64,000 nucleotides of DNA from Oscillospiraceae bacterium (GTDB taxonomy: Bacteria > Bacillota > Clostridia > Oscillospirales > Ruminococcaceae): positions 1 through 64,000 of the forward strand of contig JAFLUG010000003.1 in NCBI GenBank assembly GCA_022508885.1. Direction: 5' to 3'. Positions 37,207 to 41,426 of the stretch are shown piece by piece; position 1 is the first letter of the stretch, and every line of letters begins with the position of its first letter. The position numbers and the translations under genes are program-made. Below the pieces are notes generated by a model. The model was not told the origin of the DNA. It made no database searches and saw only the letters and a program-made list of their open reading frames with translations.

Positions 37207-37320
37207 TACATTTAGTTTTGTATATTTTTGAGAGTTTTTATACAGTTTGACGCGTGTTGAAAAACACGCGTTTTTTATTGATTGCATTATCTGCAAATTG
37301 TACAAAATTGATAAAATCTA

Positions 37321-37349
37321 TTGACATACGCAAACTTATATTGTATAAT
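37321..37349 (+). promoter_or_regulatory. Consensus sigma-A promoter
   Basis: TTGACA (37321-37326), 17 nt, TATAAT (37344-37349). Confidence 0.85.
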
Positions 37350-37399
37350 AAATATAAGTTGTGGTGTATCTACAAATACAAAACAAGGAGAATTGAGTT

Positions 37400-40300
37400 A
37401 TGGCTGATCTGGTTAATGAAATGCTTAGTAAATTTACGGAATTGGCTCAAGAGGAAAAAAATATCAACGCTGATATAGACAAGGCGTTGAAAGAATATAA
37501 CGATTATTGCAAATCATCCGATAATGACCTGAACAGAAAACTCGAGGAGATCAGAGGAAAGATAAGAAAAGTTTCCGAGCTTATGCAGTATGCCCGTGAG
37601 CACGCAAGCGATCTTGAAGAAGCGCAGATGCCGTTTGAAACATCCGAGGGCGCGCTTGAAAGCATTCGCCAGACGATAAAGCTCGATTCAAAAAATGACC
37701 CTAACGCCGAGTCGCTTTATACAAAGGCTTCCGGACAAAAGCTGTTTTACGAGGCGGAAATGGAACGAACCAGAAAGCTTATCGAGGGCAGCAAGGTCCA
37801 GGCTAAGCGTCAGTACGACGGAGATGTGGCGCTGCTTGAAAGCAGAAAGGAAAAGCACGAGCAGGAGCTGCGCGCTTATGTATTGTCCGAGGATTTCAAG
37901 CGTTATTTACAGCTGCTGTCCTTCGATAAATCCGCGTTTAATTCTCACAGCACTGTAAATCTCATAGATAAGAGCAAAATTTCGATAGGTCAGCGCAGGA
38001 TACGCTTTTCAGTTCCGATGGAGGTAGAGCAGGAGCTTTCCGCCATATCCAACGGAGAATATAACCCCGCTTCGAGGACAATTGGCGCGCCTTTCAGCGT
38101 TCCTACCCAGACAGGCAGCGTACTGATGCTCGAATATGATGAGAGAAATCAGACCTATCTTATGGGCGGCGTGGAAAGATTGCTCCTGAATCTTATCAAG
38201 TACTGCGGCTCGGATATAACAGATATGGTCTATCTTGACCCTTCAGTAAACAGCATTGAATCTTTGGGTATAATGTCCGCGTTCGCGAAAGGGATAAACC
38301 CGTTTATCATTGCGCCTCAGTCGCCTATTGAAATAAACAGCAAAATGACGGAGATTTACTCGGCGATAAGGTCAAATCCAACGCCCAACTATGTTTCGAG
38401 AGTTGTGGTTATTCACGGTTTTCCCGAGGATTTCGGACCTGAGTTCAGCGACCAGGTAATGGAGCTGGCGAGAAATATCGAGCAGAGCGGCGCTATGCTT
38501 GTAATAGTACATAACGGCGCGGAAAGCGATAACGATATCATAACCGAGCTTCGCAGCATAGCTATTACCATTAGAAGCAGAAATGGCGGATTTTACATAG
38601 ACAAGACCCGTGAAAGCCTTTTCTGGTATTCAAAACCGTCGGATATTCCCGACGCTGTTCGCAGAGCCTTTATTGAGCAGCGCAGAGTTGCGGGAACGCA
38701 AAATGCTGCTTCGGCTCAGCCTGTATATACGGCGCCCGCGCCTGCTCCCGCTGCTCAGCCTGTTGTGGAGACGGTGCCTGTTGCAGCGCCGACGGCTGTT
38801 GAGCCCGAGCCGCCTGTTGAAGAGGATGTTGAAGTACAGCCTGAGTTTATTGAACAGCCCGAAGAGTTTGAGGAGACGGCTGAGGTATTTGAGCCGGAGC
38901 CTGCGGAAGAAATATCTCCGGAAAAAGGCTCGAGAAAGCTTCCGAAAATTGTTGTCGGCGCTCGCGGCGAGTATCTTGACATAAGCAAAAACGCGGCTCT
39001 TATCTGCGGTAAGAACGGCGATGACAGAACAAAGATAGTAAAGGCGGTTTTAGACACCGTAAGAGCCTGCACGCATCCCGACAGCGCCGAGCTGTGGCTT
39101 TTCGACAACGACCAAAGCCTTGTCAATTTGGTAAATCCCAGCAGTACACATCTTAAATATGCCGTGTCGGACGAGTCTGACGAGACCGCGGTTGATTTTG
39201 CGGAGCTTCTTATCAGTGAGAAAAGCTCGCGCGCGGAGCTGTTTAAGGAAAAGCATTTTGCAAATTATGACGAAGTTTCGGGTGATGTTTATCTCCCGAG
39301 GATAATAGCGGTGATAAGTGATTTTGCCGAGTTTATGAAATCGATCGAGCGTGCTCCGAAGTATTTCGGAAGGAACATAAAGAGCTCGCTTGGAAAATTG
39401 TTAAAAAACTGTTCTAAATATGGAATAAACCTTGTTCTTGTTGGAGCGGCATTCACTGAAAACAAAAATGCTTGTGATGCTTTTGTCAATTCAGCCGAAA
39501 GTATCGCAGCCGTTTCGGGCAGGGAGAGAGATCTTAGCGAATTGTTCGGAGGAGATGTTCCGAGCAGGATCCCGGACGGTCACGTTGTTGTTTCGTGCGC
39601 AAACGGCGTGGCGCTTACGAAAATCGATATCCCCGAGCATGGCGCTATAAAGAGCTATACTCAGTCTTATGAGTATGACTCAAACGAAGAAAATTATCTT
39701 GAAAAAAATCCGCTTGTCGCAGACAGAAGCGCGGCTGTTTCATACAGCGAAAGAGAGAGCTCGCGCACGGAGCTTATTGCGGTTCGGGAAAACACTGAGA
39801 TAATGTTGTTTTTGGGAGAGCCCAGCAGAATTTCCGCAAACGTTCCGGTTATCCTGCGCGAGGATTATTCCGAAAACCTGATCATGGTTGCGCCGAAAAG
39901 CTCGGAAAAATCGGCGGCGGCTGTTGTAGCGGCGGCCATAAAGTCGCTTGAAGAGCAGGGAATACAGGCTGAAATAATCGCGGTAAAGGACAATTCTGTT
40001 TATACCGAGCTTTCTATGAACGGAATTCTCAGCGGAACGAGCGTTGTCGAAAGCGACGGAGCGGCGGCGCGTATAAAGGATATCGCTTCTCATCTCGGCA
40101 CGGGAATGATGAACGAGCTTCTGATAATTCTCGGCGGAGATATGCTTATGACTTCTCTTCACGCTGAAGACCAGAATGCCTCAGCAGAGCTTAAGAAGTT
40201 GTTCTTAAAGGGCGCAAAGTGCGGCTGCCGTGTAATGTTCGTGTGCTCAAGCGTAAGTCAGATGGCTTCCGGTTTCCTGTCGCTGTTCAGGCATAAGGTC

Positions 40301-40426
40301 GTTTTCCCGTGTCCGGCGGCGGAGGCTGAAAAGCTTTTGCAGATCAGCGACTGCGAGCTTCTTTACGGAGGGTTCAGAGTTAGCGACGATAGCGAGGAAT
40401 TCTCGGCCGTTCCATACAAGATCTGA
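37400..40426 (+). CDS. Large cytosolic protein with tandem degenerate FtsK/SpoIIIE-like modules
   Basis: N-terminal coiled coil; Pro/Glu-rich linker; FtsK-like patterns AALICGKNGDDRTKIV, LPRIIAVISDFAEFM, NCSKYGINLVLVGA; no TM segment. Confidence 0.6.
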   Translation: MADLVNEMLSKFTELAQEEKNINADIDKALKEYNDYCKSSDNDLNRKLEEIRGKIRKVSELMQYAREHASDLEEAQMPFETSEGALESIRQTIKLDSKNDPNAESLYTKASGQKLFYEAEMERTRKLIEGSKVQAKRQYDGDVALLESRKEKHEQELRAYVLSEDFKRYLQLLSFDKSAFNSHSTVNLIDKSKISIGQRRIRFSVPMEVEQELSAISNGEYNPASRTIGAPFSVPTQTGSVLMLEYDERNQTYLMGGVERLLLNLIKYCGSDITDMVYLDPSVNSIESLGIMSAFAKGINPFIIAPQSPIEINSKMTEIYSAIRSNPTPNYVSRVVVIHGFPEDFGPEFSDQVMELARNIEQSGAMLVIVHNGAESDNDIITELRSIAITIRSRNGGFYIDKTRESLFWYSKPSDIPDAVRRAFIEQRRVAGTQNAASAQPVYTAPAPAPAAQPVVETVPVAAPTAVEPEPPVEEDVEVQPEFIEQPEEFEETAEVFEPEPAEEISPEKGSRKLPKIVVGARGEYLDISKNAALICGKNGDDRTKIVKAVLDTVRACTHPDSAELWLFDNDQSLVNLVNPSSTHLKYAVSDESDETAVDFAELLISEKSSRAELFKEKHFANYDEVSGDVYLPRIIAVISDFAEFMKSIERAPKYFGRNIKSSLGKLLKNCSKYGINLVLVGAAFTENKNACDAFVNSAESIAAVSGRERDLSELFGGDVPSRIPDGHVVVSCANGVALTKIDIPEHGAIKSYTQSYEYDSNEENYLEKNPLVADRSAAVSYSERESSRTELIAVRENTEIMLFLGEPSRISANVPVILREDYSENLIMVAPKSSEKSAAAVVAAAIKSLEEQGIQAEIIAVKDNSVYTELSMNGILSGTSVVESDGAAARIKDIASHLGTGMMNELLIILGGDMLMTSLHAEDQNASAELKKLFLKGAKCGCRVMFVCSSVSQMASGFLSLFRHKVVFPCPAAEAEKLLQISDCELLYGGFRVSDDSEEFSAVPYKI

Positions 40427-40445: not shown

Positions 40446-40473
40446 CAGGGCGTTTTCATTTGAAAACGCCCTG
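40446..40473. terminator. Bidirectional terminator
   Basis: CAGGGCGTTTTC-ATTT-GAAAACGCCCTG between convergent genes. Confidence 0.75.
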
Positions 40474-40480
40474 CTATGTT

Positions 40481-41356
40481 TTAATACCCTTCGATACCGA
40501 GAAATTCCTCGAGACAAAGTCCGCTGTCGTAAATAAGCTTCGCGGTGCTCTTTCCGACATATCTCAGATGCCACGGCTCATAAATAAAGCCTGTTATGTC
40601 GGTCTTGCCCTCGGGATATCTTACAATAAGACCGTATTTATAACAGTTCGCGCCTATCCACTTTGCCTCGTCAGTAAACGCGTAGTCGTTTTCGACAGAG
40701 GTTATATCTGCCGCAAGCCCCGTCTGATGCTCGCTGTGACCGGGCCTTGCGGAGTAGGTGCTTGCTTCTTCAACTCCGTCTAATTCACACCACGCCTCAA
40801 AAACACTTTTCTGAGTTTCATAGCTTCGATAGCCGGTTCTGATTTTCATAGAAAAGCCCGAGTCCTTGCGCATTTTAACTATCGCCTCGCGAAAATCGTC
40901 GCTCAGTCCGTCGCCATAGTCTTCGGGAACAGAATACTTTTTGTTTACAACAATTATCCCGCCGACATATGTTGCGCCGTTTACTACAACCGGCTCGGGA
41001 GCTTTTATTTTGGCGGTGACCGTGCCGAGACAGACTATATCGTCAAAGGAATTTATAACGTGAACTGTTCCTGTTCCGTAGATCTTAGCTTTTTCCGTTA
41101 TCTGAAGCGTACCCTCAACATACATATCTCCGTTAAGCTCGATCTCTCCGTTAAGCACAACGGTTGCTCCGCTTTCAATTCTAATCGCGCCGCCCTTATC
41201 GCAAACTACCTTGTCGTTTATAAACTGTATTTTTCCGTCCGAAATACAAACCTCTCTGTTTTCGGAGATAGTGCCGTTCAGTGTGCCTGATTCCGTACAC
41301 GAGCACAGCATTATACCGATGCTGAAAATTAACAAAAAAATAATCAGTTTTTTCAT
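40481..41356 (-). CDS. D-alanyl-D-alanine carboxypeptidase, VanY family, with beta-rich N-terminal domain
   Basis: GYRSYETQKSVFEAW...SARPGHSEHQTGLAADIT...EPWHLRYVG; signal/lipobox-like MLCSC; start at MKKLIIFLL. Confidence 0.9.
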   Translation of the reverse strand: MKKLIIFLLIFSIGIMLCSCTESGTLNGTISENREVCISDGKIQFINDKVVCDKGGAIRIESGATVVLNGEIELNGDMYVEGTLQITEKAKIYGTGTVHVINSFDDIVCLGTVTAKIKAPEPVVVNGATYVGGIIVVNKKYSVPEDYGDGLSDDFREAIVKMRKDSGFSMKIRTGYRSYETQKSVFEAWCELDGVEEASTYSARPGHSEHQTGLAADITSVENDYAFTDEAKWIGANCYKYGLIVRYPEGKTDITGFIYEPWHLRYVGKSTAKLIYDSGLCLEEFLGIEGY

Positions 41357-41426
41357 TTTATCCCCGCTTAGTGAAGGTGCATTATAGAAGTATCGCGCGA
41401 TTCGAGCACCTACCTTTGGCAATACG

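Follow-up and report, generated by a model that had tools for sequence, protein, structure and literature searches.

The closest described relatives of the protein studied here are the EssC/EccC (TsxC) ATPases of type VII secretion, in which degenerate ATPase modules are already known. In EccC, D1 is the module with intact motifs, while the shortened Walker A of the DUF/D0 domain forms a helix and not a P-loop, and this domain is proposed not to bind ATP (PMC11154593). In Staphylococcus aureus EssC, module D2 carries an arginine in Walker A, and assembly of the complex depends on the D2 Walker motifs (PMC9436818). Predicted inactive FtsK domains also occur among the effectors of bacterial conflict systems (PMC7159879).

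Here, we analyzed a gene, pFtsK (for pseudo-FtsK), located in a 64,000-nucleotide stretch of DNA from an Oscillospiraceae bacterium, referred to in the following as the window. Its product shares with EssC/EccC the RecA/FtsK fold and the succession of modules, degenerate ones included. It differs from these proteins by a coiled-coil N-terminus, by the lack of a transmembrane segment in the structural model and of a detectable FHA domain, and by the fact that no module has intact Walker motifs and no type VII secretion component was found in the assembly. A second group for comparison are cytosolic coiled-coil ATPases with FtsK/SpoIIIE domains encoded next to WXG100-like genes (locus L125 and, more distantly, L126, L127 and L153). 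The L125 protein is collinear with pFtsK. In these ATPases, however, Walker A and B of module 2 are intact and the genes adjoin papain-fold toxin or peptidase-like genes, in L126 and L153 also kinase and vWA genes. The FtsK domains of conflict systems are likewise predicted to be inactive and reused in a non-pumping role, but they are effector domains there (PMC7159879). No description of the pFtsK family was found in the open-access literature searched.

With moderate confidence, we consider pFtsK a non-hydrolyzing, soluble pseudo-ATPase scaffold with the modular fold of EssC/EccC (FtsK-HerA superfamily). What sets it apart from known EssC/EccC proteins is that all its modules are degenerate and that it looks like a soluble protein. 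Despite this degeneracy, it is under strong purifying selection and has its own conserved promoter. Should it indeed be a pseudo-motor that stands on its own, it would illustrate how a secretion-type motor can be repurposed as a scaffold, and the non-pumping role of inactive type VII ATPase modules could be asked about directly.

Gene organization and promoter

The open reading frame starts with ATG, is preceded by a good ribosome binding site and encodes 1008 amino acids, just as the initial annotation had it. The features of the locus are as follows:

37249-37272 (+): terminator-like hairpin upstream of the gene (sequence)
37298-37320 (+): conserved element TTGTACAAA-n4-ATAAAA-n4, directly 5' of the -35 box (alignment of loci)
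37321-37349 (+): sigma-A promoter TTGACA-17-TATAAT (12/12 consensus match, 17-bp spacer)
37385-37390 (+): ribosome binding site AAGGAG (sequence)
37400-40426 (+): pseudo-FtsK/EssC gene pFtsK, 1008 aa (sequence, alignment, AlphaFold, Foldseek, motif table)
37400-37954 (+): N-terminal coiled coil, residues 1-185 (alignment, AlphaFold, dN/dS 0.01-0.08)
37955-38695 (+): module 1, residues 186-432, predicted RecA-like fold (AlphaFold, Foldseek)
38696-38920 (+): disordered Pro/Glu-rich linker, residues 433-507 (pLDDT, alignment)
38921-39634 (+): module 2, residues 508-745, FtsK/EssC module (hhalign, 21-sequence motif table)
39677-40423 (+): module 3, residues 760-1008, degenerate FtsK/EssC-like (Foldseek, hhalign, motif table)
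40446-40473 (+): terminator-like hairpin downstream of the gene (sequence)

The perfect sigma-A promoter claimed earlier is present and proved to be conserved, as 20 of 22 orthologous loci have 11-12 of the 12 consensus positions together with the 17-bp spacer. Upstream of it, the TTGTACAAA..ATAAAA block is largely kept, with its spacing unchanged, in the 20 loci that were aligned by their promoter and is weaker in L047, L049, L051 and L150. A 26-mer that includes the -35 box occurs only once in the assembly of the window when up to three mismatches are allowed, and a gene-specific regulator or an UP element is possible for the block at 37298-37349. A search for RNA elements gave no Rfam match near the gene.

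Predicted fold

A full-length AlphaFold model built with 21 orthologues has a mean pLDDT of 77, and residues 1-432 modeled alone reach 91.4. The N-terminal coiled coil noted earlier appears as two helices (residues 2-68 and 101-161, pLDDT about 90). No transmembrane segment is evident in the predicted secondary structure, and the protein looks soluble by this measure. The linker at residues ~433-507 is rich in proline and glutamate as originally described, has pLDDT values below 50 (about 30) and varies strongly in length among the aligned orthologues. It is greatly expanded in L151:2-2641, L152:1-2928 and L150:6260-10231; DPDMTYRITD is among the linker repeats of L151, and such repeats are possible short binding motifs.

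When the whole model was compared with the PDB by Foldseek, EccC (4nh0, E 8e-20) and EssC (4lya, E 1.7e-17) were the best matches, as would be expected for a modular ATPase of the EssC/EccC type. EccC 4nh0 was also the best match when a profile of the family was run against the PDB (E 5e-7). With the N-terminal half, EssC, ESX-3 EccC and FtsK were among the first hits, with E 3e-6 to EssC and ESX-3 EccC. A viral structure library returned mostly generic packaging, FtsK-type and other P-loop ATPases. The initial annotation had made its reading depend on the presence of a RecA/FtsK fold, and this is the fold that was predicted.

Among the domain models, PF01580 did not match the window protein even when E-values of up to 1 were allowed, and EccCb (NCBIfam) scored 17.4 bits, below its cut-off of 346.55. 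Such sub-threshold NCBIfam matches recur in the family, to EccCb in 14 and to EssCb in 12 of 21 members. By hhalign, module 2 matches EssC D1, D2 and D3 with 97-98% probability (98% for D1 and D2), and module 3 has a weak match to D2 (70%). Module 1 has no significant sequence match, and its assignment therefore rests on the fold and on homology with L125. A sequence-based pairing of modules 1-3 with EssC D0-D3 was considered and abandoned because the fits of module 2 to D1, D2 and D3 are nearly the same and no significant one is obtained for module 1. Two other readings were rejected: the window protein has no PADLOC match that would mark it as a defense gene, and phage records contain no match that would indicate a phage origin.

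Degeneration of the Walker motifs

In all 21 aligned sequences, Walker A (GxxGxGK[ST]) and Walker B (hhhhDE) are degenerate, and the Walker residues are lost in all three modules, such that no D1-type module with intact motifs remains. Orthologues with intact motifs in register, which the initial annotation named as evidence against its reading, were not encountered. In module 1, a helix (residues 248-272, GGVERLLLNLI) sits where the P-loop would be, in line with the earlier remark that this module lacks one. EccC DUF/D0 likewise has a helix in this place (PMC11154593), but DUF/D0 is one domain of a membrane ATPase, and by sequence module 1 is not significantly similar to EssC D0. From the original description as three eroded motor modules, the modular fold and the Walker loss stand, whereas module 1 resembles EccC DUF/D0 and not an eroded motor. 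Module 2 of the window protein contains the degraded Walker A GKNGDDRT (39008-39031) and the Walker B-like stretch LPRIIAVISDFAEFM (residues 632-646), in which the motif is degraded to ISDF, and module 3 contains APKSSEKSA; all three had been read correctly. A working FtsK was rejected on the basis of this motif loss.

According to the scaffold reading, ATP hydrolysis would have been lost in the ancestor of the genus, and the protein would have taken on a non-catalytic role as an abundant oligomeric scaffold or ring, with oligomerization suggested by analogy with the superfamily. As interaction platform, this reading proposes the highly conserved coiled coil together with module 1; the variable linker would act as a flexible tether, and module 2 would at most be a nucleotide- or anion-binding assembly switch.

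The main rival gives this last element the leading part: module 2 would bind ATP or another anionic ligand via R/K543 without hydrolysis and thereby control assembly. The lysine position of module 2 is occupied by arginine in 17 and by lysine in four of the 21 sequences, i.e., it is basic in every one, and the first P-loop glycine is kept in 20. Three of the four members with lysine also have the threonine (GKNGEDKT). ATP binding is conceivable since lysine is kept in these four members and EssC D2 works with an arginine at the same position (PMC9436818), and it is this precedent that makes the switch the main rival. However, nearly all members have another residue in place of the G3 glycine of the P-loop, and in 20 of 21 the Walker B aspartate is serine or asparagine, and we assign this alternative a low probability.

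Origin of the family

The nearest full-length homologue, L125, stems from another family of the order and is collinear over the coiled coil (E 1e-6), module 1 (2e-8), module 2 (1e-38) and module 3 (3e-17). Its module 2 is intact (GASRSGKS and VILDEF), and its neighbors include small helical ORFs, an ORF that matches WXG100 weakly (E 0.025) and another that has a papain-fold toxin domain. The stretch downstream of this homologue (L125:10697-15129) holds small helical ORFs, a papain-fold toxin-like ORF and one ORF that matches Castor/Pollux weakly and below threshold. More distant intact homologues in L126 and L153 adjoin weak WXG100-like, kinase and vWA genes, and a PP2C gene is confirmed in L153; the WXG100 matches near L125, L126 and L153 all fall below the Pfam cut-off. 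At L153:5178-15028, vWA, PP2C and kinase genes accompany an intact coiled-coil FtsK gene and a pair of weak WXG100-like genes, and this locus is a possible type VII-like system whose ATPase is cytosolic.

As judged from these sequence comparisons, a cytosolic EssC-like ATPase is the probable ancestor of the pFtsK family, because L125 is collinear, has an intact module 2 and lies beside WXG100-like and papain-fold toxin genes. This ancestor would then probably have been a coiled-coil protein of the FtsK/EssC-like type, encoded in a WXG100-associated locus. For pFtsK of the window, neither an active module 2 nor WXG100-like neighbors were found. The absence of ess/WXG100 genes noted earlier extends to the whole assembly, in which neither EssC, WXG100 (PF06013) nor another type VII component was detected; at 90.6% completeness this absence is not final. 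The only genome of the genus in which EssC and small WXG100 proteins were seen in one locus is G007 (EssC gene at L057:6919-11520, minus strand; contig C55 carries both this gene and the small WXG100 matches), and G007 has no pFtsK gene.

The idea that pFtsK is the partner of an active FtsK-like motor encoded elsewhere found no positive evidence, as PF01580 has one match in the assembly (90.6% complete), a FtsK/SpoIIIE-type ORF. A more specific form, in which pFtsK would assemble with the chromosomal FtsK/SpoIIIE motor as its regulatory subunit during division or sporulation, could draw on this sole match, on FtsK/SpoIIIE-type matches in every genus genome searched and on a neighborhood that often has a putative murC and a VanY-family gene. 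In many relatives, the adjoining genes are what we take to be murC and an M20-type peptidase gene, and a VanY gene (Pfam) adjoins pFtsK in many as well. Nevertheless, the pFtsK modules are closer to EssC/EccC than to FtsK, and ten of 43 genomes, some of them incomplete, have PF01580 matches but no pFtsK gene. We regard such a subunit as unlikely. In the window, the VanY D-Ala-D-Ala carboxypeptidase gene lies at 40481-41422 on the minus strand, and a weak, sub-threshold bactofilin-like match (E 7e-4) was seen near the N-terminus of its product.

Distribution and selection

The pFtsK gene is present in 33 of 43 genomes of the genus (23 of 27 among the better genomes) and was not seen in the searched genomes from other genera of the family; these same-family genomes also yielded no closer relative whose motifs are intact. 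When the whole class was considered, no more than two other genomes passed 1e-20. The relatives with intact motifs belong to other families within the order or class.

The reading frame is open in all 21 aligned members. In six pairwise comparisons, dN/dS was 0.01-0.08 for the coiled coil, the most conserved segment, 0.05-0.16 for module 1, 0.06-0.20 for module 2 and 0.06-0.23 for module 3. Values of 0.01-0.23 in the folded parts argue for a maintained and not a decaying protein and, together with the conserved promoter, rule out a pseudogene.

A working ATPase with non-canonical motifs could be imagined from GKNGEDKT in module 2 of the Lapin-clade members, but it is very unlikely with the Walker B aspartate lost, G3 missing and a helix in place of the module 1 P-loop. 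Finally, decay after the loss of a type VII-like secretion locus would fit the intact homologues in WXG100-like loci and the failure to find WXG100 or EssC in the assembly of the window, yet such a remnant is largely refuted and hardly credible given dN/dS far below 1, an open frame in 21/21 and a promoter conserved across ~35-90% identity.

Gene neighborhood and a candidate partner

The gene had been called solitary and insulated by terminators. This holds in the clade of the window, with terminator-like stems on both sides of the gene in the window itself (37249-37272 and 40446-40473), but only locally, since an HPt gene lies just downstream in 16 genus genomes. By coordinate count, the HPt ORF starts within ~250 bp of pFtsK on the same strand in these genomes; its start codon follows the end of the pFtsK coding region by 17 nt in L046 and by 14 nt in L044. 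A REC-HD-GYP ORF stands behind the HPt gene wherever the locus was inspected. Pfam confirms the REC and HD domains in L042, where HPt is just below the cut-off. The pair is found directly downstream of pFtsK at L042:5999-7414, L034:6446-7879, L150:10230-11675 and others.

A close HPt orthologue occurs in 25 of 33 carriers of pFtsK and in one of ten non-carriers (Fisher p 3e-4, uncorrected for phylogeny), and is missing from eight of the 33 carriers. This co-occurrence is a lead, since the E-value line that separates the orthologue from other HPt proteins was chosen after the table was seen and relatedness is uncorrected.

Within the scaffold explanation, genomic context makes the HPt/REC-HD-GYP phosphorelay, of the c-di-GMP phosphodiesterase type, the most specific candidate partner, a minority guess that we put forward tentatively. 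The full proposal, in which a dead EssC/FtsK-like assembly was recruited as the scaffold of this phosphorelay and a secretion-type architecture would be coupled to cyclic-di-GMP turnover and not to transport, appears doubtful to us at present.

In the clade of the window, HPt is not adjacent to pFtsK; the assembly has an HPt orthologue on another contig (C57). Behind it lies one ORF (L155:6389-8527, plus strand) that combines two REC domains with two HD domains.
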